DNA of 64,000 nt from Alentia gelatinosa. Taxonomy: Eukaryota > Annelida > Polychaeta > Phyllodocida > Polynoidae. The number at the start of each line of letters is the position of its first letter. Positions within the stretch are counted from its first letter, which is position 1. The position numbers were made by a program, and so were the translations under genes. Below, piece after piece: positions 2,115-56,235 of the stretch. The notes beneath the pieces were generated by a model. The model searched no databases, was not told where the DNA came from, and worked only from the letters and a program-made list of their open reading frames with translations. Location: NCBI GenBank assembly GCA_950022655.1, contig OX465582.1, positions 92,890,704-92,954,703 on the forward strand, written 5' to 3'.

Positions 2115-2510
2115 CAGAGGAGGTGTGAAGCGCAGCGCCCCCTATCGTTTTGGCATGGACTCAAATGACAGCTGATGCAGATTCCTATCCAAAAATAGGC
2201 TAACTAGTAACAGCTACTACATACAAACTGTTAGAGCTCTATCAGAAATCTTTTCAGATATTGATAGAGTGACATCTAATGTACTCCAAACCATAATAGA
2301 GCTCAATAGAGCTCCACGTTTTAAGGCTGTTTGGTGTTGTGGAATACAGCCTTATTTCTCATAGGCTAGGGCTTACTAGCAACACACAGTCCATTGTCAA
2401 GAGGTCTTTCCCCAATGCTGGCAGGTTTGAAAGTGGTGCCTTGAACCCTGCCGCGATCGCATATATGAGTTGGGTCGCTATAGGGGGCGCTGCGCTTCAC
2501 ACCTCCTCTG
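2115..2510. mobile_element. MITE with ~30-bp TIRs and 9-bp TSD
   Basis: The ends CAGAGGAGGTGTGAAGCGC (from 2115) and its reverse complement (ending 2510) form long terminal inverted repeats. Flanking direct repeats are AGTGGTCAC (2106-2114) and AGTGGTTAC (2511-2519), 9 bp with one mismatch. A 9-bp TSD fits Mutator-like elements, but an 8-bp hAT-type duplication cannot be excluded given the mismatch. No transposase is encoded in the 396 bp. Confidence 0.7.
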
Positions 2511-2526
2511 AGTGGTTACATAGACT

Positions 2527-2690
2527 TTAAAACTATCCCTTCGCTATCTGCATGCTAACACTGTGACTATAGGAGCAGAGGGCCAGTGTTTCAGAGTCTT
2601 AGAGTCTTAGAGGCATTCCCAGCTGACCATGACCAATCAAGGGACCGAAATACATGTACCTCATTGACTCACTGGTCGGTGGTGACCACA
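2527..2690 (+). repeat. Dispersed repeat family I, partial copy
   Basis: The sequence beginning AAAACTATCCCTTC and containing AGCTGACCATGACCAATCA is also present at 5775-5998 on the same strand and at 49584-49812 on the opposite strand. This copy lacks the right end, where the full copies end in a mirrored CTATCC motif. It directly follows the 9-bp-TSD MITE. Confidence 0.6.
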
Positions 2691-2758
2691 TTTTTCGGGA
2701 AGGGTGTTTTTTCTGTATTTTCCAGGTTCAATCCGAATTCCCCACTAAATCCTTGAGG

Positions 2759-2840
2759 CTAAAGCCGGAGACACACCAAGCGAGTCAAGGTGGCGATCTC
2801 TGGAATCGCCGATACAAAATAGTATGTATCTGAGATATTC
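2759..2840. mobile_element. Left end of a 'CACACCAAGCGAG' MITE (family B), truncated
   Basis: TAAAGCCGGAGACACACC and the following bases match the left ends of the clustered elements at 7097-8399. The matching right end is absent, so this is a truncated copy. Confidence 0.6.
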
Positions 2841-2917
2841 AGATCAGTGCCGAATGGTCGGCCTATTGAAAATGGTCTTATTTGGCTGTACTAATGCCAC
2901 CGAATGGAAATCCAAAG

Positions 2918-3193
2918 TAAGGCCCGGCGTCCACCTACTACGATATGGCACCGATATGGTCTACGATGCACCTCCCGATAGAAAATCAAAATCGCGTCGG
3001 AAGGTCTCCTAATATCGGGGCAGTTGACCACGTTTCTTCGATTAGGCACCGAAAAAAAGCCCTTACGATGCATGGTGGACTGGCATGTCTACGATTTTGT
3101 ACCTTCCCGATATGTCTCCGATATTTGCTTTTTTGTATCGGTCCCATATCGGTAGGTCTAAATTTCTATCGTAGTAGGTGGACGCCAGGCCTA
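2918..3193. mobile_element. MITE family A, copy 1
   Basis: The ends are AAGGCCCGGCGTCCACC and its mirror GGTGGACGCCAGGCCTA, bounded by TA on both sides. About 25 bp of terminal inverted repeat continues into CTACTACGAT. Other copies lie at 37212-37496, 39294-39580 and 43902-44187. TA flanks suggest a Tc1/mariner-type or TA-targeting origin. No protein is encoded. Confidence 0.8.
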
Positions 3194-12393: not shown

Positions 12394-13071
12394 TTGGATG
12401 TGAGTGCCCTCTACACCAACATCCCCAATGATGAAGGCATATCAGCCATCAGAGAAAAATTATCAAACAGGGGAGTATCCCCAAACCCGAGTACTGATAG
12501 CATACTAGAACTACTGACAGCCGTACTGACACAGAACAACATACAGTTCAATGAAACAAACTATATACAGATTAGCGGTACAGCGATGGGGACTAGACTG
12601 GCCCCATCATACGCTAATCTATATATGGAATCACTAGAAACAAAGCTACTGGAGGGATACGACCTCCAACCCAAGGTATGGTCGAGATATATCGATGATA
12701 TATTCTTCATCTGGGAGCACGGTGATAATGAACTACAAAAGTGGTTCAATTACCTCAACCATGCACATGACAGGATAAAATTCACGATGGAAACATCAAA
12801 AACCCACGTGAACTTCCTAGACACGACGGTCAAAATAGGTTTGGATCATAGATTGTACACCGACCTATACACCAAACCGACCGACGAGAATACATACCTA
12901 AGATATGAATCCTCCCACCCCCCTTCGCAAAAAAAGAGCATCCCGTACTCACAAATGCTTAGAGTGAAACAGATTTGCTCAAAGGATGCAGACTATCAAA
13001 GACATGCATCACAAAAAATGAAGGACTTCCGGAATAGAGGATATCCAAACTTTCCTGATCAGCATCTATAG
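12394..13071 (+). pseudogene. PLE1 reverse transcriptase core (N-terminally truncated)
   Basis: The frame carries Penelope-type RT motifs in order: DVSALYTNIP (motif A, catalytic Asp) at its very start, GTAMGTRLAPSYANLYM (motif B) in the middle, and YIDDIFFIW (motif C, the catalytic Asp pair). A C-terminal patch (QKKSIPYSQMLRVKQIC) typical of PLE RTs follows. There is no proper ATG: the open stretch starts at a TTG where the element is truncated, so the N-terminal RT motifs are lost. The frame ends early near 13071, and the endonuclease continues in another frame. The ancestral enzyme would have copied element RNA into DNA. Confidence 0.85.
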
Positions 13072-13120
13072 GCAGGGCAAACCTATACTCCCATCCATAG
13101 TTGAACAAAACTGGGAGATA

Positions 13121-13705
13121 TTGAGAAAATCCACCACCACCAAGGGCCTGTATAAAAGCAACTTGGTGAAAGGATACAAACGCCCAAAAAATCTGAAAGA
13201 CCATCTGGTCAGGGCCAGAACCACTTTTCACCTGGAAGGTAAAGTCAAAACCAATACCCACAGTAACATCTGCAATAAACCAAATTGCAAATACTGTGCA
13301 ACACTGAACCGAGGACCCAAAATAAAGTCCAAAACCAAAGGCACCACACATAAGTGCAGAACCAACATCACATGCAATAGCTCAAATGTGATATATTGCA
13401 TTGAATGCAAAAATTGCAAATCACAATATGTTGGACAGACAAAGAGGAAAATTAAAGAGAGGATCTCAGAACACCTGAGATCAATCCAACAAAAAAGTGC
13501 CATAAGCGATGTGCCAAAGCACTTCAACCAATGCACCCACAAGGGCGTAGAAGATGTCCAGGTCTATATCCTAGACTTCATCTACAGACATCCAGACAGC
13601 AAACGTGCTGGGATACTCAGAGACAAAATTGAGTATAACTGGATACACCGACTGAAAACTCAGGCCCCACAGGGAATGAACACAATGGATAGCAAATATG
13701 GATAG
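13121..13705 (+). pseudogene. PLE1 GIY-YIG endonuclease domain
   Basis: The frame continues the PLE polyprotein after a frameshift near 13060. It has a Cys-rich linker (CNKPNCKYC, then CNSSNVIYCIECKNC) and the GIY-YIG nuclease core: VIYCI, QYVGQT, KIKERISEH with the catalytic Arg, and KIEYNWIHRLKT with the catalytic Glu. It ends normally at SKYG. This domain nicks the target DNA in Penelope elements. It lies 35 bp upstream of the right inverted arm. The gene is broken by the upstream frameshift and truncation. Confidence 0.88.
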
Positions 13706-25053: not shown

Positions 25054-26109
25054 CACTGCACGAAAAGCACCATTTTACATATATATACACCATCGCGATA
25101 ACGCACATATCGGCTGTATCGTGGCTTGTTTATACTTGTATACACCTCTTATACGCGTCTGCGTTTCAGGCGTCTACGAGACAGTTTCCATATGTAGACG
25201 CACGCGACTTGGCTGTCTTTCACGCCTGGCGTATTTAAGATAAAACATACTCTGTGCAATATATATATACGCCAGGCGTATATATGATACCAAAAATAGA
25301 TAAAATTGCGACCCGCGGCCCGCCGCGTCCTGTGGGTGTTGGTAGAGGATGCACCAACACCGACCCGCCACCCGCGACCTCCCAACCCCACCCCCTACCG
25401 CCCCCCTCAGTGAGAAGCCCCCCGCTGCCCGCCGCCCACCGCCCAACGCCGGCCGCGTTTGTACAGGTTGACTCAGTGGGAAACCCTCCCCCACCCCCCA
25501 CCGCCCGCCCATGCCCGCCGCTGCCCGCTGCGAGGTGTTACAGTGTCGGACTAGAGGCCGCTCGCCTCGTGTAAGATGATTTCAGTCCTGAGGGGCGGAG
25601 TCGGAGTCGGAGTCGGAGTCGGGAGGAGGACTCTGTCACCCAGAGACACTGGGGGGAGGCGATTATAAAGTAAGGCTGACTGTCCACACATTGAAATGGT
25701 GTTTTAAAGTTAAATAAAATATCAGAAAAACGGTAAAAAAAAACAACTTAATGCAGGTTTTGTGTAATTAATCAATTTATACTCAATCAGGTTTTATAAA
25801 GGTTTTATAAAATAACTTGGTAATATAAGATTGCATTTTTCATATAAAACAGACTTGGATGGTTAATGGAAAATGAAATATGCTACCAGTAGTGTCCCCA
25901 AGTTGCAAAGATCGGAACCTTTGGATGTTGGTGTATATAAAACAGAATCAGGCGTATATGTGACGTATATAAGACCGCACCATGGACATGTATATACGCC
26001 ACTAGATAGGGCGTCTACGAGACGGATTACAGGTTCAACTTCTAGACGCAAAATCCTACTGTTAGACGCGTTTCGGATGCATATGTAAAGCGGTACTTTT
26101 CGTGCAGTG
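25054..26109. mobile_element. CACTA-like element, 1056 bp, TSD GTT
   Basis: The left end CACTGCACGAAAAGCACC and the right end GGTACTTTTCGTGCAGTG are inverted repeats continuing about 30 bp. TSD is GTT at 25051-25053 and 26110-26112. Subterminal GTATATACGCC and GGCGTATAT motifs recur within about 200 bp of each end, as CACTA elements typically have. The centre (25300-25660) is very C-rich with a (GGAGTC)4 run, unlike the AT-rich ends, and may be captured DNA. No transposase is visible. Overlapping open frames in the C-rich part are composition artefacts. Confidence 0.8.
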
Positions 26110-26385
26110 GTTGGTATGACTGTTATGGGACGCCAGTTTGAAAATTCTGCTAAGTCTCCAGTTTTCGGTAGTGGGGTTACGGTTCCATGAAGTAGTGAGA
26201 TTGGAAACCTGCATGTGCGCATGATGACATTTATTACTTTCATGATAATTTCTGGTTTACTCATGAGTATTCTCTTTAGCTGTCCTGAGTTTAAGCTGGT
26301 TAAACCGGTTGCTTTGTTAGGTTCAATGCCCTTGAGTATTTGTATTACCTCGGCTAATGTCACCTCATTGGGAGCTAAGATTGTT

Positions 26386-27122
26386 ATGCCCAAGTAGGAA
26401 TACGAATTACAAAAAGGGAGGACACTTTCATTTACTACTAATCTCACCCGTTGTTGGACTTCTTTTACCATATTTAATTGGTACCTCGATCCAAAAAGAC
26501 ATACCTTAGATTTACTTGTGTTAATTTTCATAAAGTTTGTCTTACACCATAGATCTAACAATTTTAAGTCTGCATTCAGCCTATGTAGAGAATTTTCCTG
26601 AATATCATCCATTGTATATAAGACAAGATTGTCTGCATATGCTATATGAGAACAGTTGAAAGAGGTGGTAATCATATCATTTATGTAACAATTAAACAAT
26701 AACGGTCCTAATATACTCCCCTGTGGTACTCCATTTCTAACTGGCAGGTAATCAGATAAAGTCTTTCCAACCTTTACTCTTTGCATTCTATTACTAAGAT
26801 AATTTTTGGTCCAATCTACAATATAAGAATTAAGTCCCATTAAATGAAGTTTCTCAATTAGAATTTTGTGATTAACCCTGTCAAAAGCCTTACTTAGATC
26901 AACAAAAATTACCGTGACAACCCTCCCATTATCCCTATATCTATATAGATCTTGAACAAATTTAGTGACAGCATCAACAGTACCCCTCCCCTTTCTAAAA
27001 CCGAATTGATTTGAGTTTAGAATATCATGTATATCTAAATGTTCGGTGATCGACTTATGAAAAACTTTCTCGATAATTTTCCCAGGTAGGGGCAACAGCA
27101 AAATAGGTCTCCAATCACTCAC
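26386..27122 (-). pseudogene. LINE A reverse transcriptase, central part
   Basis: The minus-strand frame contains DWRPILLLPLPGKIIEK, QFGFRKGRGT, FVDLSKAFDRVNH (catalytic Asp), NGVPQGSILGPLLFN, YADNLVLY (the catalytic box, with Asn in the second Asp position) and SYLGITI. Beyond 26386 the same open frame continues into LINE B sequence and then CACTA sequence, so the 419-codon open frame is a chimera. YADN instead of YADD would probably inactivate the enzyme. Confidence 0.85.
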
Positions 27123-27170
27123 TGATTCAGATATACCGTTTTTTGGAATAGGAACAATGTCCGCTTTAGC

Positions 27171-27690
27171 CTACTCAGCAGGAAATATTGACACATTTAT
27201 AGACATTTGATATAGATGTCTGAGCTGATCAATAATAATTGTGAAAACATCCTTCAAGACTCGAGAGTTGATATTTCTTACCCCGCAACTTTTACCTATA
27301 TCTATATCGTTCACTAATTTATATAAGTCAGATAGGGTAACAGTTGGTTTGACCGTTTCAAGTTTTGGATCACTTTCCATTTGATTATCTATCTCATACA
27401 TAATGTCTTCGGTTGTAGTATCAGACGAAGGATCACCAATACTATTAAAAAATACATTCATATAATTAGGGAGTTTATCCAGCTCAACATAACAACTAGT
27501 TTCTTTATCAAATAATTTTCGGACTGTGGTGGTGGTTACAGGATCATAGAGGTGTTTTATAGACTGCCAAAATTTTCTCTGACTATCCAATTGTTCTTCA
27601 AGTCTGTCTGACCAGTATCGTCTTTTTGCCTCCTTTATTTCTCTGGAAATTTTTTTATTTAAAGTTTTTATCTGCTTACCAAAATAGGAT
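27171..27690 (-). pseudogene. LINE A linker region before RT
   Basis: Reads KFWQSIKHLYDP, YMNVFFNSIGDP and DIGKSCGVRNINSRVLKD, the usual region between endonuclease and RT in CR1-like LINEs. It ends FPAE then TAG at about 27170; the frame then continues AKADIVPIPKNG into the RT block. The TAG sits where most relatives have Trp, so it is a nonsense mutation. Upstream coding similarity fades near 27745. Confidence 0.7.
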
Positions 27691-27905
27691 GTGCGGTGAG
27701 CGGCATGGTGTGAGGACGTGCTTCGCGTGTGCTCCCAGTGTAGTCAATGATTTCTATATATTAAGCTGAAGATCAATGGATATCTCAAAACCAAAAGGGA
27801 ACAGACTATAGGAGTATATCACACGGACTAAGAACCACTGATCATTCTCAAGTGGAAAGTGTACAAAGTTGATAAATATCACCTGGATATTCTTAGGATC
27901 TCAAC

Positions 27906-29795
27906 ATGAGTGACGGCACGCGCATCGAAACTGATTATCGCTCACCTGCTGTATGCACTACACCACAAATGGAATCGATACCAAATGAAAATGACGAATG
28001 TAGAAAGAGAAACAGGTCTCTCCAGTCAACACCAGGAGGAGAAAACTCACCATCGCAACAAACGCAAAAAAGAAACAAGTCTGATAATTCAGAAACTGAG
28101 GTAAGCGGGGAATTACAAAATATACCGGCAACTAAACACGACATCAGTGACTTAAAGGAATGTATAATAAGCAGTTTGAGCACCCAAACTAAACGGATTG
28201 ATGCGATTGATGTAAAACTGCAAGCACTAAGTAAACATACTGCTCGTACAATTGATTCCGTTAACGCAGACATAACCAATGTACAAAAAAATCTGGATAG
28301 TGAGAGCACTGTACATAAGGATTCTATGGATGATATTCGCAGAAAAATGCAGGATCTAAATAGGAAAATGACTATTTTAATGGATAACATGGGTAAACTC
28401 AAAGATGAGAAAGTCACGGAAACTGGGGAACAACAACATACAGATGATGATTCTAACACACGACATAATTATGCTGACAGAGATAGGAATGTGGTTGTAA
28501 TGGGCTTGCACACTGAATACGACCAGGACCTTCACGGGGCCGTACATTATATGTGTTCGGAGATGGGAGTATGGTTTGCGCCGGGCGAGATCCTGAAACT
28601 AAGTAGAATGGTACCACAACGAGGACCTTCTAATGATAGACCACCACCTGTATTAATTTCCTGCTCTACGAAGAACGCGAAAAACAAGTTTCTATCGCAC
28701 GCAGCCAGAGCGAGTTATTCAACGCTGGGGCGCTTGAGCATATTGCCGGATGAGCCAGCCTATCTTCGCAAGCAACGAGGGTTGATGAAAATGGTATTTG
28801 GGTACCATAAGAGAATCGGAACGGATATCAGTATGCAGGAGTTCGGTTTAACCATTGAAGGAGAGGAGATTTCGCTTAAAGAGATGGAAAAAATCGAGGA
28901 TCGTTGGCTACCAGATGACTTATTGCAGAAGAGGAGGAGGGGAGAATCCCTAATACGCACGAATTACCAGAGAAATCCCCGACATCTTGAGGAAAATAAT
29001 CCCAGCTACACGGCATGGTCCACAAACTTAGACCCAACGAAATGGGAAAGGGACCCGAGAGTACCCCCCATAGATGCAAACAATGATTGGCCCCCACTCG
29101 CACCGCTTGACCTAAAGGTACAGCACAAGCAGGTCAACCCACTTCATACTGTAGTTGGAAATGTACACACGGCTAACCAACAAGTAGATGCATACACTCC
29201 CTCTGACCCAGTGGTGGACAAACCAATTAGTGATGAACCAGGCACGCCTGCGGCTGTGTTTGACTCAGGTGTGTATAGGGCACCATGTGGCATAGTGTTC
29301 GCCAGGGCTAATGCCTATCTGAGTAACTTCTTTCCCGCAAAAATCAGAGTGAAAAACATTGGAAATATGATAAAAAATGAGTTGCTGTTCAATTCAGTAG
29401 AGCAAGCTTATCAGTATAGTCATGCGATTATGGTCAATGACTTCCGTGTTGCCTTTTGTGTGATGAATTCAAAGGATGCTCATGATGCAAAAAAACTGAG
29501 TCATGAAATCACCCCTAAAGACGATGCTAATTGGGAAAATATTAAGGAAGCGAAACTGAAAATGCTCATGACTGCGAAGTTCGAACAGAATGCTGATTTG
29601 AGGGAAAAGCTGAAGGCAACCTTTCCATATATGCTGGTAGAGGGCACTAAAGACGCATTCTGGGGCTCAGGATCAGACCTAGCTGATACAGTAAAACAAA
29701 CAAACATCATCGGGAAAAACAGGTGCGGACAGCTTCTCTGTGAAGTACGAAACGAGATTCTGGCCAAGGTAGACCCTTTGTCAATAAGGAAATAA
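27906..29795 (+). CDS. LINE C ORF1p: coiled coil, RRM-like and C-terminal NADAR domain
   Basis: 629 codons from an ATG at 27906. Residues 1-60 are polar and basic. About 60-165 is heptad-like and likely a coiled coil. About 195-290 (NVVVMGLHTEY, then FLSHAARAS and LSILPDEPAYLRKQRG) fits the RRM-like fold of LINE ORF1 proteins, which bind element RNA. A Pro/charged linker leads to a NADAR domain at about 462-618: GIVFARANAYLSNFFP, NSVEQAYQYSHA, KFEQNADLREKL, LVEGTKDAFWGSGS, then NRCGQLLCEVRNEI. NADAR proteins act on ADP-ribose or NAD-linked substrates; bacterial members remove ADP-ribose from DNA guanine. The motif Glu (SVEQ) is kept. The domain is not a usual LINE component. The NADAR identification is strong; its role here is inferred. 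Confidence 0.9.
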   Translation: MSDGTRIETDYRSPAVCTTPQMESIPNENDECRKRNRSLQSTPGGENSPSQQTQKRNKSDNSETEVSGELQNIPATKHDISDLKECIISSLSTQTKRIDAIDVKLQALSKHTARTIDSVNADITNVQKNLDSESTVHKDSMDDIRRKMQDLNRKMTILMDNMGKLKDEKVTETGEQQHTDDDSNTRHNYADRDRNVVVMGLHTEYDQDLHGAVHYMCSEMGVWFAPGEILKLSRMVPQRGPSNDRPPPVLISCSTKNAKNKFLSHAARASYSTLGRLSILPDEPAYLRKQRGLMKMVFGYHKRIGTDISMQEFGLTIEGEEISLKEMEKIEDRWLPDDLLQKRRRGESLIRTNYQRNPRHLEENNPSYTAWSTNLDPTKWERDPRVPPIDANNDWPPLAPLDLKVQHKQVNPLHTVVGNVHTANQQVDAYTPSDPVVDKPISDEPGTPAAVFDSGVYRAPCGIVFARANAYLSNFFPAKIRVKNIGNMIKNELLFNSVEQAYQYSHAIMVNDFRVAFCVMNSKDAHDAKKLSHEITPKDDANWENIKEAKLKMLMTAKFEQNADLREKLKATFPYMLVEGTKDAFWGSGSDLADTVKQTNIIGKNRCGQLLCEVRNEILAKVDPLSIRK

Positions 29796-30507: not shown

Positions 30508-30533
30508 CTATAAACATCCACCTAGCGACTCAG

Positions 30534-31088
30534 TGATCGGTAGATCACCGTATTACAGTAACTATACATACTCTTCTAGTGATCGGTAGATCATTAATGA
30601 ACAATGAAAACAACAACACAGTGATCAGTAGATCATCGTCTTATGATAACTATAGAGAATCTTCTTGTGATCGTTAGATCATTAAATAACAATGATATTC
30701 GCAACGATACCAACTGGGGATCGGTAGATCTGCTATTATAAGAACTGTAAAGTTATACTACTAAATCATCCTAGTGATCGTCAGATCATTATATATATAT
30801 ATATATACTTTGTTATCAATTAGAATATACAGATTGAGAAAATCGTCTTTGGTATTATGTTTTCTTGTTTTCTTGTACTTATATATGAAGGTATTCTGCT
30901 AAGGGCGTAACGTGATTGATAGATCACATTGTATTATATAATTGGTATCAATATAATCTCATTATATCATTACAGCTACTTGTTTATCTAATTATTTATG
31001 TATGTATATCTATTAACTCGAGATCTGTTACCTACGTTATGATCTGTCAAAGTAAAATAACCGGTTACTACTGGTGATCGGGAGATCA
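30534..31088 (+). repeat. Eight GATC-N4-GATC palindromes between ORF2 and ORF3
   Basis: TGATCGGTAGATCA and close variants start at 30534, 30580, 30622, 30668, 30718, 30775, 30913 and 31075. The arms TGATC and GATCA pair around a 4-base loop. Intervals of 46, 42, 46 and 50 bp, with alternating similar spacers, give a higher-order unit of about 88 bp. The arms are conserved more than the loop or spacer, suggesting selection on a DNA-binding site or RNA stem-loop. Possible roles are an internal promoter or enhancer for ORF3, or translation re-initiation. LINE D has a related set. Confidence 0.85.
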
Positions 31089-31441: not shown

Positions 31442-32941
31442 ATGGATCAGAAAGGGATTAAAATTATTGGTCAGAATATAAGGAGTTTGTTCACAAAGAA
31501 GGAAGAAGCATATGAAGCTTTTAAAGGATGTCAGTTCTTATGTTTTAGTGAAACTCTTTTACATGAGCTATATGAAGATAATATGCTTTTAATGAATGGT
31601 TACAAATTGTTTAGATTGGACAGGATAACTGGAAATTGGGGAGGAGTGTGTTGCTATGTGGGAGAAGATTTTGCCGTCCATAGCAGATATTGTACTAAAC
31701 TAAGTATAACATGTGATAACCACGAAATCCTAGTGATATTAGTGGACAAGCCCATGCTCAAGAAAATGGCAATAATCACTTGCTATAAACCGCCGCCCAA
31801 GTCAGCAATACTTTTCTATAGCAAGTTAGAAGAAATAGTTAATGCACCAGAAATAATTAATAGGGAAATTTGGATAATTGGGGATACAAATGTTGATGGT
31901 AAAAATAACAATAGTGTTGAATTCAAAACAATGATGAACTTCGTTAGAAATACCGGGCTTAAACAAATAGTAGTTGATATAACAAGACCAAATCCTAATG
32001 GAGGAACAACAATAGATCACATATATACCAATAGTTTGTATGTTAAATCTGTGCATACGTTAAATGAGATGTTGAGTGATCACTATGCCACAATAGCCAT
32101 ACGAAAACATGATGGTAGAAAAAAGAAAAGAGTTGAGTTCAGTGGTAGAAGCTACAATAATTATATAAAGGAGGATTTTAGTAAATATTTAATCGGGGAA
32201 AATTGGAAGACTTTTTGGGAAATTAATGATGTTGATAAACTGTGGATTATCTGGATGGAGAAAATGAACAGATATTTAGACTTAGTGTGTCCGATTAGTA
32301 AAAAGAATTTCAGTGACTGTAAACCAACATGGATGTCCAAAAGCCTACTTAACTTAATTAAACATAGAAGAGACCTTGTTAAATGTTTGAAAATAAAAAG
32401 AGATGGAGATATCCTAAAAGAAATACGTAGAGTGACTCGACAAATTCGAAACCAACTTAAGTCTGAAAAAAGTGAATTTTGTAAGCAAAAGTTAACTGAG
32501 GCACGAGGACATCCAAAAAAGTTCTGGAGTTTGATTAATAATGTGATAAATCCTAATGAGAATATACAAAAATGTGTACTGGAAAGAAATGGAAAACAAT
32601 TACCTTCTATTGAGGTCCCTGATTATATAAATGACTTTTTCGTTGAGATAGGGAAACTACTTTTTAACAAGCTTGATAAAACATTGTATGAAATGAATGA
32701 ATCTGGATTGCTGGATAGGACTGAAAATACGAGTGTATATGATTACCCAATAGTATTCAAATCTGAAGATATAATAAGAAAGTTAAAAGAACTCAGTTCA
32801 AATAAGTCCAGTGGAATACAAGATGTGTCGACCATAGTATTAATGGACAGTATTGAGTTGTGTAAAGAACAATTTACCCACATTTGTAATGCTTCTGTAT
32901 CTAATGCTAAATTTCCAACCGAGTGGAAAAAGCGACGGTAG
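31442..32941 (+). CDS. LINE C ORF3, first part: APE-like endonuclease and start of RT
   Basis: From an ATG at 31442. APE-type endonuclease motifs: IGQNIRSL (Asn), CFSETLL (Glu), CYKPPPKS, WIIGDTNVDG (Asp/Asn), TTIDHIYTNS (Asp-His) and LSDHYATI (terminal Ser-Asp-His). It then enters the region before RT (FWSLINNVINPNE, NKSSGIQDVSTIV). The frame ends EWKKRR at 32941 because one A is missing from an A-run near 32930; the RT continues in the next frame. The endonuclease nicks target DNA to prime reverse transcription. Confidence 0.88.
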   Translation: MDQKGIKIIGQNIRSLFTKKEEAYEAFKGCQFLCFSETLLHELYEDNMLLMNGYKLFRLDRITGNWGGVCCYVGEDFAVHSRYCTKLSITCDNHEILVILVDKPMLKKMAIITCYKPPPKSAILFYSKLEEIVNAPEIINREIWIIGDTNVDGKNNNSVEFKTMMNFVRNTGLKQIVVDITRPNPNGGTTIDHIYTNSLYVKSVHTLNEMLSDHYATIAIRKHDGRKKKRVEFSGRSYNNYIKEDFSKYLIGENWKTFWEINDVDKLWIIWMEKMNRYLDLVCPISKKNFSDCKPTWMSKSLLNLIKHRRDLVKCLKIKRDGDILKEIRRVTRQIRNQLKSEKSEFCKQKLTEARGHPKKFWSLINNVINPNENIQKCVLERNGKQLPSIEVPDYINDFFVEIGKLLFNKLDKTLYEMNESGLLDRTENTSVYDYPIVFKSEDIIRKLKELSSNKSSGIQDVSTIVLMDSIELCKEQFTHICNASVSNAKFPTEWKKRR

Positions 32942-34257
32942 TACCCATACCTAAGTCAGGAAATAACATGTTAATAGACAACTGGAGGCCTATCTCTTTG
33001 TTGAACCTCCCCAGCAAAATCATCGAAAAGCTTATTCATTCTGTTACTTATGATTTGTTAAATGATGTGGAGTTACTTGAAAATAGGCAATATGGTTTTA
33101 GAACAAAAAGAAGCGCTGGTGACGCTATTTTTTCTTATTTGAAACATCTTTATGAGGCTAGGAGTAAAGGTCAAATAACTATTTCTTGTTTTGTGGATTT
33201 TCGCAAAGCGTTTGACTCAATTAATCACAGTCTACTCTTGTTAAAACTGGAAAAATTACTAAAAATTCCACTTAATCTTTTATATTGGTTTTATGATTAT
33301 CTATTAAATCGAGAACAGAGTGTCAAAGTAGACGGTTTAAAATCAAAACAAAGATTTGTAGAATTCGGAGTCCTTCAGGGGTCAGTGTTAGGCCCTTTAC
33401 TTTTTATATTATTTGTAAACGATTTAGGTAAACATATTAAGTTATCACAGTTTATTCAATATGCTGATGATGTTGTTGTTTTCTATTCTAATAGTGATCT
33501 AGAAAAGTGTGAACAAATTATACAAGAAGATGTTGATTTATTGTCGAACTGGTGCCTAGCTAATGGATTGACAGCTAATGTAACCAAAACAAAAGTTATG
33601 TGTATTGGTACACAAATAGGTTTAAAGAAAATGAGAAAACCCAAGATTTTAATGAATGATATAATATTAACTTGTTGTAGTAAATATAAATATTTAGGAG
33701 TGATAATCGATGAGACATTATCATGGGAACAACATTTTAAGAGTATCGTAAAAACGGTTAGTAGTAAGTTATATAAATTCAACAAATTACGTAGTTGCTT
33801 AACAAATGATGCTGCCAGAAGTGTTTATATTAATAGTATTGTTCCTCACATGGAATATTGCTCATTTATCTATGAAAGTTTTAGGAAACGGGATTTGTCA
33901 ATTATAGTAAAACTTAATAACCGGGGGATGAGGACTGTGATAGGTTCAGTATCTAGACTGACATCAATTAGCAAATTATATGATCTTTGTAACATTGATA
34001 CACTAGAATCTAGGTGCTGTAAACAACTGTTATGTATAATGTATAAGAATAAGAACAATTTGGAATGGACTGAAAATAGACCACGAAGGACAAGGACACA
34101 AGAGAAACTCTTATTTGCACTAGATACTACGAGATGCACCACAGTGTATAACAGTCCGTACCAGAGAGGGGCAAGACTGTGGAATCAGTTGTCTCCCGAA
34201 CTACAAAATGCGATGAACATTGACCAATTCAAGAAATTACTTAATCATAGAAATTAA
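32923..34257 (+). CDS. LINE C ORF3, second part: reverse transcriptase
   Basis: Continues ORF3 after the frameshift: ATVVPIPKSGN, DNWRPISLLNLPSKIIEK, RQYGFRTKRSAGD, CFVDFRKAFDSINHSLL (catalytic Asp), LQGSVLGPLLFILFVND, FIQYADDVVVFY (catalytic Asp pair), KYLGVIIDETLSWEQH and the C-terminal patch PYQRGARLWNQLSPELQ, ending with TAA at 34257. The Met at 32923 is only the first in the frame, not a genuine start. Apart from the frameshift the RT looks complete. RT and the upstream endonuclease together carry out target-primed reverse transcription. Confidence 0.88.
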   Translation: MEKATVVPIPKSGNNMLIDNWRPISLLNLPSKIIEKLIHSVTYDLLNDVELLENRQYGFRTKRSAGDAIFSYLKHLYEARSKGQITISCFVDFRKAFDSINHSLLLLKLEKLLKIPLNLLYWFYDYLLNREQSVKVDGLKSKQRFVEFGVLQGSVLGPLLFILFVNDLGKHIKLSQFIQYADDVVVFYSNSDLEKCEQIIQEDVDLLSNWCLANGLTANVTKTKVMCIGTQIGLKKMRKPKILMNDIILTCCSKYKYLGVIIDETLSWEQHFKSIVKTVSSKLYKFNKLRSCLTNDAARSVYINSIVPHMEYCSFIYESFRKRDLSIIVKLNNRGMRTVIGSVSRLTSISKLYDLCNIDTLESRCCKQLLCIMYKNKNNLEWTENRPRRTRTQEKLLFALDTTRCTTVYNSPYQRGARLWNQLSPELQNAMNIDQFKKLLNHRN

Positions 34258-46861: not shown

Positions 46862-47821
46862 CTAGCCGTACCTGTTGTCCAGAGTGTTGAGACCATGTTG
46901 AGAGTGTGTTTTTAGTCGGTGTATCCAGTTGAATTCAATTTTATTTCTCAGACGTGCCGCTTCTTTCGAATCGGGGTGTCTGTATATGAAATCTAGTATG
47001 TGTACCTTTACGTCTAGGGTACCGTTGTGAGTTTGTTGGTTGAAGTGGCTTGGTATTTCATTCTTCCTTGTGTTGTTTTTGATGCAGTTCAGGTGTTCTC
47101 TGATTCGTTCCTTGATCTTCCGCTTTGTCTGCCCCACGTACTGCATGTTGCAGGATTTGCACTCGATACAGTAGATTACGTTGGAGCTGTTGCACGTCAC
47201 ATTCCATTTTGTTTGGTGTTTTCGTCCCGTGGTTTTGGATGTGACTTGTCCATCCATGTTAAGGATGCGACAGTACTTGCAGTTTGTCTTGGTACACTTG
47301 TTTTCCTCGTTGTTTTTCTGTTTCTTGTTGGTTTCTAGTTTATCTTCGGTGTCGTCCCGTTTGTTGGGTTGTTCTTTTTTCTGTTTCTCTTTTGCCCTTG
47401 GTATCGGCTTGGTTCGGTCGGTGTTGTTTTCTTGAGGGTGGCTTGGTTTGTAGTTCGTTTTTGCTTTTACTAGGTAATCCTTGACGTTTTTCGGGCGTTT
47501 GTATCCGTTGATGAGTTTCTTCTTGTGCAGTTCTTTGGTCGTGATGGATCGTGCCAGGATATCCCAGTTATCTGTGATTATTTTCCCCACAGTGTTTTTT
47601 TCGGGTTGGTAGGTGGTTACTAGAACCACTCCCTCTTGTTTGTTGGTGTCCTTTCTTTTTTCCAGTAGTAGTTGGTTTCGTTCTTTCAGATCTACTTTTT
47701 CCTTGCATTCGTTGATGAGTTTCTTTGGGTAGCCCTTTCTTTCAAATTCACCCATTTTTCTCTCGCAGTGTTTCTCGTAGTCGTCGTCCTTCTTGCAAAT
47801 TCTTCTCAAATTTTTCCCCAA
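46862..47821 (-). pseudogene. PLE2 GIY-YIG endonuclease with RT C-terminal remnant
   Basis: The minus-strand frame starts at a TTG at the truncation, so there is no real start. It has a basic linker (KINGYKRPKNVKDYLV), Cys motifs CTKTNCKYC and CNSSNVIYCIECKSC, and the GIY-YIG core QYVGQTKRKIKERIREH and KIEFNWIHRLKTHS with catalytic Arg and Glu, ending DNRYG. It shares the family signature with PLE1 but has a longer charged linker. Its RT core is missing. Confidence 0.85.
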
Positions 47822-50806: not shown

Positions 50807-53695
50807 CTAGTTCTCTACAGGCATTGTATGTACCACCTCCTTTATTTTCATTTTGAATTTATCTATCCTATCAATCGATTGTATTTCTGGCGCTAGAGTA
50901 TCCCATAGTAATCCACCCACATAAAGAGGTGATTTCCTGTACTTTTCAGTCCTAGGCCTCTTTATTTTTAATCTTATTTTATTCTGACTTCGTGTTCTGT
51001 CATTTCCATCTGTAAAAACATTTTTGTTGTATCTACTCCACCATCTTACAAGTGTCATTAGGTGGCCTGCTCTCCTAATTGCTAAAGGCCTCACCTTACA
51101 TAGTCTCATAACCTCTTCCATGTGCATGTCTGTTGGTTTCTTTATCTTTAGTGCTACTCTTAGAGCTTTATTAAACAATAGTTGTAATTTATTTCGTAAA
51201 GTCTTGTTTATACAGTAATACACATGATCGGAATACTCAACTACTGATAATAGCATGTGCTTAACAATTTTTATACTTGCCTCGGTGTTAAGGTACTTTC
51301 TTATCTTTCTTAATTTGAATAATTTCATATTTAATTCCCTGGTTACCTTTTCTACCTGTTTTTTAAAATTCATTCTTTCATCTAGGATCACCCCCAGATA
51401 TTTGTAGCTTTGTACAGATAAGATACTTTCGTCGCCATATTTCACAGCTTTAGTTCTATCAATCCTGTTGTTATTACTTACCCACATAATTTTAGTTTTT
51501 TTCGTATTTAATTTCATCAAATTCTTGTTAGTCCATGCAATTATATTTCTTAGTTCTTCTTCAACACGAAAGAACACTTCCTGCTGCGTATCTCCTGTTA
51601 CTATCAGTGCTACATCGTCCGCATAAATAACTACTTTCGAGAAATGTAGTACATCAGGTAAACAGTTAATAAACAGTATAAATAACAATGGCCCCAGGAC
51701 CGAACCTTGGGGCACTCCATAACTAATTGGTTGTTCTGAAGAAAAGGTATCATTAACTTTCAAAATTGTAGTTCTATTTATTAGGTAATTTTGTATGACA
51801 TTTATTAAATTTCCATTTATGTGTAGGTTTACCAATTTTTCAACTAATAAGGAATGATTGACGCTATCAAATGCTTTGGAGAAGTCTATGAATAATATGG
51901 CTATTGTTTTCTTACTGTCTAGTCCAAGTAAAACTTCATTAATTAATGTAAAAATAGCTTGGCTTGTGGATCTTCCAGGTAAGAAACCAAACTGCTCTTC
52001 AACAAGTACATTTCTAGTATATAGTTCATTTAACAAATATTTATGTAAGATCTTTTCGATAACTTTTGATAACATAGGCAAAACCGTAATCGGCCTCCAG
52101 TTTCCGTATAACTTTAGGTCACCGTCTTTCGGTAGTGGCGTAATCTTTCCCATTTTTAGAATATCTGGAAAATAATTATTTGCCAAGACTTTGTTTATAA
52201 CCGCTACTAACAAGTTAGGCTCAACTAATATAAGTTTCCTAAGTATTCCTGTTTTTACTAACTCTATGCCAGTACTTTTTTCACCATCCAATTTTCTCAG
52301 GATCTTAGTTACCTCTTCTCCATCTGTCTTCATCAGTTGGTAATGTTCATGCAGTTCATTTACGTCGTTGTCTTCTATACTTTCATTACCTGGTTTCGGA
52401 TTCTGTAGCTCATCAGGTTCTTTTGCTTGCCGTACTACCGCTGCTTCTTCCATTACTGGTTCGCCTATCTTTGAAAAGAACACGTTCATATCATCCGCAA
52501 CTTCCTTCCTAGTCATATTATCCATTTCCGGAAATACTTTCTGTTCTCCATCTGTTGGGTTCCATGTTTGCTGTAATACCCTCCAAAATTTTTTTGGGTT
52601 ATCTCTATTATTTTGTAGATTTCTATTTATTAGTTCACTTTTCATATTCCTCAATCCATTTGTTATTTCCCTCCTCAACCTTCTAATTTTTTTAAGTGTG
52701 TCTATGCTATGTTCTCTACTGTAAGACGTTATAAGTTTAGCTCTTAATTCTATTTTATTTGATAGTTTCCTAGAAATCACCATTCCCTGATGTGTCCTTA
52801 CTTCTTTTGTATTTATTGGGTAATTTTCACTTATATTTTTGGTTATATACCTTATGTAATTCTCACACTCCTCCGTGCCTTCTATTAATCTTCCCATATT
52901 ATATCCATTAAAGAAATTGTTGAGTTCATCCTCTGTTATCTTGTTAATATTTCTAAATTTAATAATTTTCCTTACTGATTTATCTCTTTTCTTTTTTCGT
53001 ATTCCAAAAATCATTACATGATCCGATAAAAAGTAGTTTATGTTGCCCGATTCTATGATATATTTGGAGTTAGTGTAAATATGATCTATTGTGCTTGATC
53101 CATTACCATATAAAAAAGTTTGATGTGTTTTCAATTGCTCTAACATATTATCACTTAAAAACTCCCTCATACGTTTATATTTATTACAAGTTAAAGCTAA
53201 GCTATTTACGTTCATATCGCCTAGAATCCATATCTCATGATTTTTGAATTCGTTATCTTGAATTATTGTGCTAAGTGTTTCATAAAAGAGGTCTATTTCC
53301 TTTCCAGGTGGTCTATAGATTGACATAATTAACATTTTCTTGTGATTGGGTTGTTCCATAGTTATTATCAGACTTTCTATTATTTCGTTTGAATAAGTAT
53401 ATCTATCTATAACTGTTACGTATGGTATGTACCTATTGTTGACATATATCGCCACGCCTCCTCCTATTTTATCATAACCATAGTTCCGATCTGTTCTAAA
53501 TATAGTCATGTTTTTTAGGTTTAGCATATTTTTGGCATATTTATTAGTTAACCATGTTTCCGTTATCGTGAGAAAGTCTATATCCTGAAAGATATAATTG
53601 AGCTCATCTAATTTAGCGTACAGACTTCTGATATTTACGGTAAGTAACTTTAATCCTTTTAGTAGTTGCAGTTCGTTGGGCTTATAGTATACCAT
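50807..53695 (-). CDS. LINE D ORF3p: APE-like endonuclease and reverse transcriptase
   Basis: An intact frame of about 962 codons from the ATG at 53695. Endonuclease motifs: LLTVNIRSLYAK, TITETWLTNK (Glu), MSIYRPPGKE, WILGDMNVNS, STIDHIYTNS and FLSDHVMIFG. RT motifs: NWRPITVLPMLSKVIEKIL, EQFGFLPGRSTSQAIF, LFIDFSKAFDSVNHSLLVEK (catalytic Asp), YGVPQGSVLGPLLFILFIN, VVIYADDVALIV (catalytic Asp pair), SYKYLGVILDERMNFKKQ, and C-terminal KIKRPRTEKYRKSPLYVGGL. No internal stop. The protein should be capable of target-primed reverse transcription if expressed. Confidence 0.92.
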   Translation of the reverse strand: MVYYKPNELQLLKGLKLLTVNIRSLYAKLDELNYIFQDIDFLTITETWLTNKYAKNMLNLKNMTIFRTDRNYGYDKIGGGVAIYVNNRYIPYVTVIDRYTYSNEIIESLIITMEQPNHKKMLIMSIYRPPGKEIDLFYETLSTIIQDNEFKNHEIWILGDMNVNSLALTCNKYKRMREFLSDNMLEQLKTHQTFLYGNGSSTIDHIYTNSKYIIESGNINYFLSDHVMIFGIRKKKRDKSVRKIIKFRNINKITEDELNNFFNGYNMGRLIEGTEECENYIRYITKNISENYPINTKEVRTHQGMVISRKLSNKIELRAKLITSYSREHSIDTLKKIRRLRREITNGLRNMKSELINRNLQNNRDNPKKFWRVLQQTWNPTDGEQKVFPEMDNMTRKEVADDMNVFFSKIGEPVMEEAAVVRQAKEPDELQNPKPGNESIEDNDVNELHEHYQLMKTDGEEVTKILRKLDGEKSTGIELVKTGILRKLILVEPNLLVAVINKVLANNYFPDILKMGKITPLPKDGDLKLYGNWRPITVLPMLSKVIEKILHKYLLNELYTRNVLVEEQFGFLPGRSTSQAIFTLINEVLLGLDSKKTIAILFIDFSKAFDSVNHSLLVEKLVNLHINGNLINVIQNYLINRTTILKVNDTFSSEQPISYGVPQGSVLGPLLFILFINCLPDVLHFSKVVIYADDVALIVTGDTQQEVFFRVEEELRNIIAWTNKNLMKLNTKKTKIMWVSNNNRIDRTKAVKYGDESILSVQSYKYLGVILDERMNFKKQVEKVTRELNMKLFKLRKIRKYLNTEASIKIVKHMLLSVVEYSDHVYYCINKTLRNKLQLLFNKALRVALKIKKPTDMHMEEVMRLCKVRPLAIRRAGHLMTLVRWWSRYNKNVFTDGNDRTRSQNKIRLKIKRPRTEKYRKSPLYVGGLLWDTLAPEIQSIDRIDKFKMKIKEVVHTMPVEN

Positions 53696-54135
53696 TTGAT
53701 ACCAGATCACACAATCTCATCTTATTAAGAATCTGCATCCGATTGTAATTAACATATTTGGTTTTTGTTATGCACTTACAGTTCTCCAACATAGACACAA
53801 ACAGTAATACATTTAACAAGTTACATATTAACAACATACACCCTACACCAAACGACATGCCCATACGTGTGAAGACACAATTGCATATATTAATAAAATA
53901 TACACAATTGAGCCCCTGACAAAGGAAATACTCTTCAGAAGGCATAGTTACAAGTGTGCAGGTAAACAGAAGTGACATGGAAAAACAACAACAACAGAAA
54001 GTATATCATACCCCCCAAGGCAGCGGCAAGAACTCTTGGAAATAAAGTATTTTGTTTCATTTATTTAATTCTTCATTATCATATCTATATATATTATTTT
54101 CTCTCAGTCGGAAAAGATAAGCGATTCTTATATTT

Positions 54136-54252
54136 AGATCTCATGATCTCCTATTTGCTTAGTCACTGATCTCATGTTCAAGTATCCAAGCAAGTTTATA
54201 CGATAGGTTTGATTTATATTTTCGCCAATAGGATTACTGATCTCATGTTCAG
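54136..54252 (-). repeat. Three GATC-type near-palindromes in the ORF2-ORF3 spacer of LINE D
   Basis: On the minus strand TGAACATGAGATCA occurs at 54239-54252 and 54167-54180, and AGATCATGAGATCT at 54136-54149. The shared core is GATC-ATGA-GATC, with one arm altered in two copies. The layout and position match the GATC-GGTA-GATC array of LINE C, although the flanks differ. Confidence 0.7.
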
Positions 54253-54382
54253 TTCGCAGATTTATATTTCATACTTCGTTTCATGTCCATTTTCCTCTCG
54301 ATATAATTATCGCATCAATATACTAATTAGTTAGTTACTCATGCCTCTTCATAGTCTTTCGCTATTCTTCTTTAGCACTTAG

Positions 54383-55051
54383 TTATCCATGTCGTCCCTG
54401 TAGCTTGTTTTTTGTTATACAGAGGCTTAATTGCGCAGCTATTTTCTTCAAAGTCTCGAAGTACGGATGCACACCATCGTATAACTTATGGTACATGTTC
54501 TTCATAGCTTTGTTTTTTACATTCAGGTGGATTGGTCTACCCAGATACGGTGTGTACAGGTTGTAGTCCATATTTGTTCTTGTCATCGCTTGGTTAACTG
54601 CTTTTATTATAGCCTCTAGTTTCGATTGATCCGTGTGGACTCCCGTTCTATTATTGTTTGCGGTTTGTAGATCCATACCATAAATAGACCCAATGATCAC
54701 AGCACAGTCTCCGTCCATTGCGTTTACCGCCAGCCTAAGTAGTTCATATTGTTCAATTACGCTGAGTGTTATATTCCTTTCACTACCTTCTCTGACAGAT
54801 ATACGTGTTGGATTCGTTTTCTTTACAGTAATAGAGTTTGTACCACCTACTATATATGCTGCCTCATAGCGTTGTCCACGTATTCTTGCCCTGCGTATTT
54901 CGTCCACGGCCGCATTTGCGAGTTGTTGTATTATGGCACCCGATTTGTAGATCACCTTGCAGTCAGCACCACGTTCATGGTCCAGTAACCTTTGGAGTCC
55001 CCGCGCCCTCGAGTCTCCTACAATTAAGTATATAGGACTTACGTTGTTCAT
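54383..55051 (-). CDS. LINE D ORF2p: SGNH-hydrolase-like protein
   Basis: 222 codons from an ATG. SGNH blocks are intact: YLIVGDSRARGLQRL (block I), AYIVGGTNSITV (block III) and YDGVHPYFETL (block V). Alignable with LINE C ORF2 along its length by eye, including the RARG/RARH and DLQT patches, but clearly diverged. It lies 143 bases downstream of ORF1. A conserved stand-alone hydrolase in two diverged LINEs implies selection for its activity. Confidence 0.85.
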   Translation of the reverse strand: MNNVSPIYLIVGDSRARGLQRLLDHERGADCKVIYKSGAIIQQLANAAVDEIRRARIRGQRYEAAYIVGGTNSITVKKTNPTRISVREGSERNITLSVIEQYELLRLAVNAMDGDCAVIIGSIYGMDLQTANNNRTGVHTDQSKLEAIIKAVNQAMTRTNMDYNLYTPYLGRPIHLNVKNKAMKNMYHKLYDGVHPYFETLKKIAAQLSLCITKNKLQGRHG

Positions 55052-55194
55052 TTTTTGTTTCTCAGGTCGCCTCTCTTTTTTTTTTTTTTGTATCCACCGT
55101 TCTTTAACTATTTTGTGTTCTTCACGCTTGGGCTAGACCTTCTTGTCTGTGTTCTCAATAGTTTTCAACATGGCGTCTTTCTGTCATGCGCATT

Positions 55195-56139
55195 TTATAC
55201 TGGGGTCTCCTGGCGTGGATCACCTGCACCATTTAACATGTTCCCTATTTGCCGCGCATTTAATTCCATAGTATTTGTTTCTCTCCGGATGTCTTCCCTT
55301 ATATGCAACAGTAACCTTCCAAGGCGATTTTCTCCAGGGTATCTACCCGCATCATATTCCAGTGAATCAATATTTAAACCTCCTCCCCAGTATTTGTTTG
55401 TGGTACCTTCTACCAGGTTCTTTGGGTGCGTTGAGAGTAGTTTACCTTGTATCTCAGGATTCTGTCGAAATTTCCTTTGTAAGATAAATTCCATGACCTC
55501 CTGCTTAGACTTGATCCATTGAAAGTTCTCTTCACAGTCATCCGCTATCCTCTTTGCTTGTAATGGGCTGGTTGCATCCTGGACCTTTAAGACTAAATCC
55601 GGTCTATCGTTGATTCGACATTTTTCCGCTTGGTAGCATTGTTCTGCGGACAAATACGTCTTTCCATTGTATTTTACATGTACATCGCTAAAGTTACTCA
55701 TGAACGCATTTGTTCCTTTAAACACTAACCCTGCTTTTGTTAGCCTAGTGCCTGGGTAGTCCCATTGCGTCTGGGTATTTTCAGCCTGCCTCGTTTCACT
55801 GCCCTGCGTCGCCTCGCCACTCCCGTTAGGCACAGTTACTTTAGTTGTGGCCACTGCAGCAGTAGTTGGTAAGTGAGCTCGTGCTTCATTTGTATTATTT
55901 TCTGTTTTTCCCTTGACTTTTTTCTTCTCATTTTCTTCATTTTCCCGTTCTTGGACTGTATCTATTTCCATGCTTGTTTCTGTGTCATCCTTTTTACTAT
56001 TTTCCGTTTCTCTCACTTCTTCCCTTTCTATGCTGTCCAAAATCATTTCCTTATCGATTTCTCTTCTTTCAACCGTTACGTCCCTTAGGTAACTGATATC
56101 CCTTCTCCTGCTCATATCGCTACGCTGTTCCTCTTGCAT
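55195..56139 (-). CDS. LINE D ORF1p (5'-truncated) with C-terminal NADAR domain
   Basis: 314 codons from the first ATG; the frame is open for about 30 more codons upstream (ISGTWYNARYCENIPREYIP), so the real N-terminus is lost. Residues 1-75 are highly charged and acidic, then a Ser/Thr/Gln linker, then NADAR at about 137-290: GLVFKGTNAFMSNF, YLSAEQCYQAEKC, FILQRKFRQNPEIQGKL, NLVEGTTNKYWGGGL and NRLGRLLLHIREDI. The key Glu (SAEQ), Trp-Gly and LVE motifs are kept. The RRM-like region seen in LINE C is not visible here and is probably in the missing part. Confidence 0.85.
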   Translation of the reverse strand: MQEEQRSDMSRRRDISYLRDVTVERREIDKEMILDSIEREEVRETENSKKDDTETSMEIDTVQERENEENEKKKVKGKTENNTNEARAHLPTTAAVATTKVTVPNGSGEATQGSETRQAENTQTQWDYPGTRLTKAGLVFKGTNAFMSNFSDVHVKYNGKTYLSAEQCYQAEKCRINDRPDLVLKVQDATSPLQAKRIADDCEENFQWIKSKQEVMEFILQRKFRQNPEIQGKLLSTHPKNLVEGTTNKYWGGGLNIDSLEYDAGRYPGENRLGRLLLHIREDIRRETNTMELNARQIGNMLNGAGDPRQETPV

Positions 56140-56235
56140 CCAGGGGATGTATTCTCTCGGAATATTTTCACAATATCTCGCATTATACCATGTACCTGAA
56201 ATGCAAACTTCTTCTTGCTTAACTATTGCTGTCTA

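Follow-up and report, generated by a model that had tools for sequence, protein, structure and literature searches.

A predicted YbiA-type NADAR domain on the ORF1 protein of LINEs from the annelid Alentia gelatinosa

NADAR proteins are reported to reverse the ADP-ribosylation of guanine in DNA (PMC11543638), and those tested also remove guanine-linked ADP-ribose from RNA (PMC11833690). All NADAR/YbiA proteins tested in one study hydrolyzed guanosine-ADPr on a DNA substrate, and the roles of NADARs across eukaryotes are called unclear there (PMC11125620). Mutagenesis of the E. coli C7 NADAR identified a lysine (K50/K95 position) as needed for efficient hydrolysis, for which arginine can stand in in vitro; a glutamate at the position of E43 together with a lysine at that of K50 is described as largely conserved over the superfamily, without being a strict criterion (PMC11543638). 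Guanine-N2 DNA ADP-ribosylating activity is reported from six clams, from one of which the enzyme CARP-1 was cloned (PMC11209040). Retroelements with the domain have been described as well: several ORF1 proteins of Crassostrea gigas Tx1 LINEs in Repbase have apparent NADAR domains, and Gypsy elements of Ectocarpus carry NADAR (PMC12477816). The bare fusion of NADAR to a LINE ORF1 is thus already published, contrary to the sequence-only reading of the DNA presented here, which knew of no such LINE. That paper was the only one on NADAR in retroelements that we found in the open-licence literature, where nothing was found on NADAR LINEs with other reverse transcriptase (RT) types, a three-ORF layout, constraint on the domain or the histidine group described below.

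We analyzed a window of 64,000 nucleotides of A. gelatinosa DNA (contig OX465582.1), in which two LINEs, element 1 on the plus strand and element 2 on the minus strand, carry a NADAR domain (Table 1). The ORF1 protein of element 1 scored 92.5 bits against the Pfam profile PF08719 (NADAR; cut-off 35.1), and structure prediction gave the domain a YbiA-like fold. The preceding part had no match in Pfam; the predicted model assigns to it the coiled coil, RRM and CTD of a type II ORF1. An APE-type endonuclease (EN) and an RT lie downstream of ORF1, as in a LINE. Profile and fold bear out the sequence-only proposal of a NADAR domain fused to a LINE ORF1 protein of RNA-binding type, and on the predicted model element 1 is a LINE with a YbiA-type NADAR on a flexible arm of an RNA-coating-type ORF1 protein.

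Table 1. Features of the two NADAR LINEs, in window coordinates.
Feature	Position	Strand	Remark
Element 1 ORF1, 629 aa: coiled coil, RRM, CTD, linker, NADAR	27906..29795	+	
Long helix (coiled coil), ORF1 residues 80-168	28143..28409	+	AF2 secondary structure
RRM and CTD, L1 ORF1p type, ORF1 residues ~195-344	28488..28937	+	
Disordered linker, ORF1 residues 350-448	28953..29249	+	pLDDT <50
NADAR domain, ORF1 residues 450-622	29253..29771	+	
Glu499, equivalent of E43 of P. nicotianae NADAR	29400..29402	+	
His506 at essential Lys position (K50/K95), common to close relatives	29421..29423	+	
Glu579, equivalent of E125 (YbiA-family Glu)	29640..29642	+	
Element 1 ORF2, SGNH/GDSL hydrolase-like, 221 aa	29842..30507	+	below Pfam cut-off
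17-nt GATC-rich palindrome-like repeat, seven copies, between ORF2 and ORF3	30528..31087	+	
Element 1 ORF3, first piece: endonuclease and RT start	31442..32941	+	
Element 1 ORF3, second piece: reverse transcriptase, other frame	32923..34257	+	RVT_1 2.1e-34
Element 2 EN-RT ORF, 967 aa, open frame	50807..53710	-	
Element 2 SGNH ORF	54383..55132	-	
Element 2 ORF1 piece with NADAR	55195..56232	-	

The predicted structure of ORF2 of element 1 (pLDDT 88) had the GDSL esterase 8gr2 as its best Foldseek match (4.4e-7), and the catalytic residues S14, D191 and H194 are invariant in all 12 aligned copies. A sequence profile of the SGNH ORFs matched PDB sequences weakly, with the 'ORF1-encoded protein' 4c1b (E 0.022) ranking behind designed proteins and GGA1; the fold match settles the identity of ORF2, which on its predicted fold and Ser-Asp-His residues is SGNH/GDSL hydrolase-like. 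ORF3 is broken into two frames near position 32930. Its EN piece has a weak Pfam match of its own (E 0.034) and is 37% identical to the EN of element 2, which matches Exo_endo_phos_2 at 7.3e-10. The repeat between ORF2 and ORF3 has the core TGATCGGTAGATC, and six of its seven copies lie within 30530-30787 at steps of 42-57 bases. A strict form of the motif was absent from 19 of the 20 loci fetched from the genome (see below) and occurred once in L040, outside the spacer; the spacers at these loci, from SGNH ORF to ORF3, span about 450-1750 bases where measured.

Element 2 (50807-56232, minus strand) repeats the order of element 1, with NADAR frame, SGNH and EN-RT, and the first part of its ORF1 was not found in the frame that carries the NADAR. 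As the two elements are just 27% (NADAR), 42% (SGNH) and 32% (RT) identical, the NADAR-SGNH-EN-RT layout is old. No convincing pair of target-site duplications was found for either element. A truncated LINE RT (25863-27743, minus strand) ends directly before the 5' end of element 1. Elsewhere in the window, an RT piece with a GIY-YIG domain after it (12394-13705, plus strand) and a second GIY-YIG frame (46862-47821, minus strand) are, from their layout, presumably Penelope-type remains.

A NADAR profile search over the assembly of the window (1.234 Gb) gave 3136 candidates, of which 150 were scored. All 150 exceeded the NADAR cut-off; the domain lay in an open frame of at least 500 aa in 93 and had a stop inside in four. 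Twenty of the 150 places were read with 10 kb of context, hand-picked mostly from the top of a list ranked by NADAR score, which favors intact NADARs. Nineteen of them are LINE copies. The NADAR lies in an open frame of at least 450 aa in 15 of the 20 places (15 of the 19 LINE loci) and in a frame of at most 282 aa in four LINE loci (L034, L038, L039 and L044); Pfam, run on ten of the places, found it over cut-off in all ten. At 16 of the 20 loci, the NADAR is followed by an EN and an RT of the type seen in the window. An SGNH frame was found in 14 of these 16 by tblastn and in all 16 by a profile built from ten of the rows, the independent finds being L038, L039, L044, L045, L048 and L049; it is split over two frames in L039, L044 and L048. 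In the reported element, the other ORFs that were scanned matched SGNH, EN and RT only.

The remaining place, L031, has a stand-alone NADAR frame of 242 aa (2402-3127, plus strand) with a Ser/Lys-rich tail, the best NADAR match among the scored candidates. No LINE ORF was matched in its 10 kb context, and it is likely a cellular NADAR. In a protein database the window NADAR had one match, P0002, a protein of 664 aa that looks ORF1-like by eye, with the NADAR in mid-protein and a further C-terminal part of 230 aa; a query with the element 2 NADAR had none. Viral and bacterial-archaeal genome contigs gave 14 and 55 pattern matches, respectively, none of which was confirmed by tblastn.

The fused domain is under strong purifying selection. 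Between related copies, w in the NADAR was 0.030-0.037 at dS of about 1 (eight pairs, in effect one contrast) and 0-0.16 in nine close pairs; against this reading, four pairs near saturation gave 0.34-0.44. The pairs dropped were 498 that were saturated and nine that were too close, one of these being a locus entered twice (L008 = L036). dN was lower in the NADAR than in the preceding ORF1 part in 11 of 11 pairs, a comparison in which upstream segments were as short as 23 codons (1.5-kb flanks) and the ranking of loci by NADAR score lowers the NADAR dN somewhat.

Because the NADAR sits on a protein of RNA-coating type, removal of guanine-ADPr from the RNA or cDNA of the element is the most economical explanation, and we give an even chance to the whole reading in which the NADAR of LINE ORF1p removes base-linked ADP-ribose from either. 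ORF1p would bind the element RNA as L1 ORF1p does, and its NADAR unit would remove base-linked ADP-ribose, most likely guanine-N2-linked, from that RNA or, alternatively, from the cDNA synthesized in target-primed reverse transcription; a guanine ADP-ribosyltransferase, of the CARP-1 kind known from clams, would then be unable to block copying. RNA would seem a substrate no less likely than DNA. An eraser acting on the element's own nucleic acid had also been proposed from the letters of the window, with host PARP-type ADP-ribosylation as its trigger. The first part fits the tethering to ORF1; the PARP trigger is a weaker idea, since NADARs tested on uracil ADP-ribose made by PARP10 are reported to have had negligible activity or none (PMC13036486), and those tested on phosphate-end ADP-ribose, including that made by PARP14, to have left it in place (PMC11833690).

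Active-site residues were compared in an alignment of 19 LINE rows mapped on the P. nicotianae NADAR structure 8bau; L044, which has an internal stop, and L045, nearly a duplicate of L042, were not included. E43, E125, W89 and W133 are kept in all 19 rows, and the active-site residues are among 18 invariant alignment columns; Asp at D130 is found in 16 rows and absent in three. K50 is present in 18 rows, with element 1 and its His506 as the sole exception, and these same 18 rows have the pair of Glu at E43 and Lys at K50. The catalytic residue in the last strand is Glu in the YbiA family, Asp in the BC4488 family and His in phage. Glu stands there in all 19 rows (Glu579 in element 1), as in the YbiA family, and the Asp that marks DarT1 partners at the E125 site is absent. 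The full NADAR signature claimed by the sequence-only reading fails at the essential Lys, replaced by His506 in element 1 and also in close relatives. One fetched copy outside the alignment, L015, has Lys at the NADAR catalytic Glu and is otherwise like its family.

The exact motif EQAYQYxHA, with the histidine, occurs at 23 places in the genome, and EQAYQYxKA at 12. The P0001 search gave 83 matches (70 of 3372 candidates scored), 65 of which span the site of His506: EQAYQYxHA was found in 20 of the 65, EQAYQYxKA in none, and neither exact motif in the other 45. The histidine motif was present in 20 of the 30 matches with at least 47% identity and in none of the 35 below 47%, and in 14 of the 16 that are at least 50% identical and start before residue 60. 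Decay of a single copy as the cause of His506 is ruled out by this spread over many relatives. Further copies of the element 1 ORF1 share 47-59% identity over nearly the whole length, and another contig holds a copy that is 98% identical and whose ORF1 frame is open, so the His506 group was mobile recently. This group, including the reported copy, has probably shifted in chemistry or substrate.

The predicted fold is retained where His takes the place of the essential Lys, as it does in the reported copy and in many of its close relatives; this, together with the long end branch of the window NADAR (1.59), would suit a domain that binds ADP-ribose on protein, RNA or DNA breaks and guides the RNP to nicked, ADP-ribosylated chromatin. 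However, Lys is kept in 18 of the 19 LINE rows and both Glu in all of them, and a pure reader would have no need for the catalytic Glu in most families; we regard this alternative as unlikely.

By analogy with E. coli YbiA, which also acts on riboflavin intermediates, the substrate may be a small molecule. A domain acting on a NAD- or riboflavin-related metabolite as YbiA does, unrelated to nucleic acid marks, would agree with the YbiA-family Glu of the LINE NADARs and with their placement on the YbiA side of a 100/98 branch, apart from L031 and P. nicotianae (three outgroup rows, long branches). We nevertheless find it distinctly improbable, as the NADAR is part of a LINE copy in 19 of 20 places and, in 15 of these 20, of a single long ORF1 frame, and all tested NADAR/YbiA proteins also hydrolyzed guanosine-ADPr on DNA (PMC11125620). 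Monophyly of all LINE NADARs has a p-AU of 0.377, with YbiA placed among them, and the tree with outgroups warns of long branches for L031, win1, P0002 and YbiA. The stand-alone NADAR of the genome, L031, was rejected as a recent source, as it does not group with the LINE NADARs in this tree with three outgroup rows only.

A structural ORF1 module, for RNA packaging or oligomerization and kept for its fold only, would fit the strong constraint by itself but not the active-site residues among the invariant columns, and is very unlikely. A chance match, an artefact or a host NADAR gene beside a LINE is ruled out with near certainty by the single open frame, the 98% and 47-59% identical ORF1 copies elsewhere and the same fusion in 15 of the 20 places read.

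From motif style and the lack of likeness to L1, the window-type RT may belong to the Jockey superfamily (CR1/L2 lineages). Three of the 20 read loci (L035, L041 and L043) have an EN-RT of L1 type: L035 matched human L1 ORF2p at E 3.7e-109 over residues 46-919, where element 2 reaches only 3e-12, and L041 and L043 join L035 at 100/100 in the RT tree. L043 also has an SGNH-like frame directly after ORF1 (9.6e-21). RT and NADAR trees were built from the same 20 of 22 rows, leaving out L031 (no RT) and L045 (near-duplicate of L042); the L043 RT fills 35% of the columns of the RT tree. Three groups are supported in both trees: L035/L041/L043; L032/L036/L037/L047/L048; and element 2 with L040, L033, L034, L039, L042, L044 and L046. 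A fourth group, L038/L049/L050, has support in the RT tree, where the fork next to it that bears element 1 is unresolved; the NADAR tree places element 1 with these three (97/96). Many forks of the NADAR trees (9 of 17) are unresolved. The domain has thus for the most part been passed on together with the other parts of the element.

RT path lengths average 6.7-7.9 between the L1-type and the other loci and 2.9-3.05 among the others; the corresponding NADAR values are 2.9-3.0 and 3.1-3.3, and at about 3 in a short alignment they are possibly saturated, which could exaggerate a signal of exchange and shrink differences. The NADAR thus differs far less between the two RT types than the RT itself does. 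This suggests that the ORF1 module was exchanged between RT types, or captured from one source, in accordance with the reticulate evolution described for ORF1 (PMC4120745).

NADAR-ORF1p and the SGNH hydrolase after it might form a mobile two-enzyme 5' cassette that was exchanged among LINE superfamilies and multiplied to counter a host enzyme adding ADP-ribose to guanine in the RNA or cDNA of retroelements, with the change from Lys to His shared by one group reflecting an arms race or a switch from eraser to reader. We offer this tentatively and think it on balance doubtful. If true, this would provide the first demonstrated case of a retrotransposon with an anti-ADP-ribosylation enzyme at work, and guanine ADP-ribosylation would be a genome-defense mark in invertebrates. 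An eraser of the clam-type mark, selected inside abundant LINEs, could link the eukaryotic roles of NADARs with the reason why clams make a guanine-N2 DNA ADP-ribosyltransferase, and NADAR LINEs make it testable whether base ADP-ribosylation restrains invertebrate retrotransposons. More generally, our results suggest that enzyme-bearing ORF1 modules of LINEs pass from one superfamily to another.

The C. gigas Tx1 LINEs resemble the elements described here in the apparent NADAR of their ORF1, and are mentioned briefly, without analysis, in the accessible text of that source (PMC12477816); here, the RT is not L1-like in 16 of the 19 LINE loci, which also encode an SGNH protein in an ORF of its own. 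New relative to that mention are the copy numbers, the selection, the active-site survey and the signs of module exchange. Ectocarpus Gypsy elements are likewise retroelements with a YbiA-family NADAR, but they are LTR elements with the NADAR reported at the N-terminal part of Pol (PMC12477816). The P. nicotianae (8bau) and E. coli C7 NADARs are stand-alone proteins (PMC11543638), whereas the LINE NADARs are fused to ORF1; the reported copy differs from 8bau by His for K50, and at the E125 site the LINE NADARs have Glu where DarT1 partners such as C7 have Asp. Human L1 ORF1p, a type II ORF1, shares the coiled coil, RRM and CTD with the predicted ORF1 of element 1, which adds a long C-terminal linker and the NADAR. 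Esterase ORF1 proteins of the ZfL2-1 type (type IV) are also LINE-encoded SGNH hydrolases with S, D and H kept; there, the SGNH is a domain of ORF1 (PMC3905857, PMC4120745), whereas here it is a separate ORF that follows a type II ORF1.
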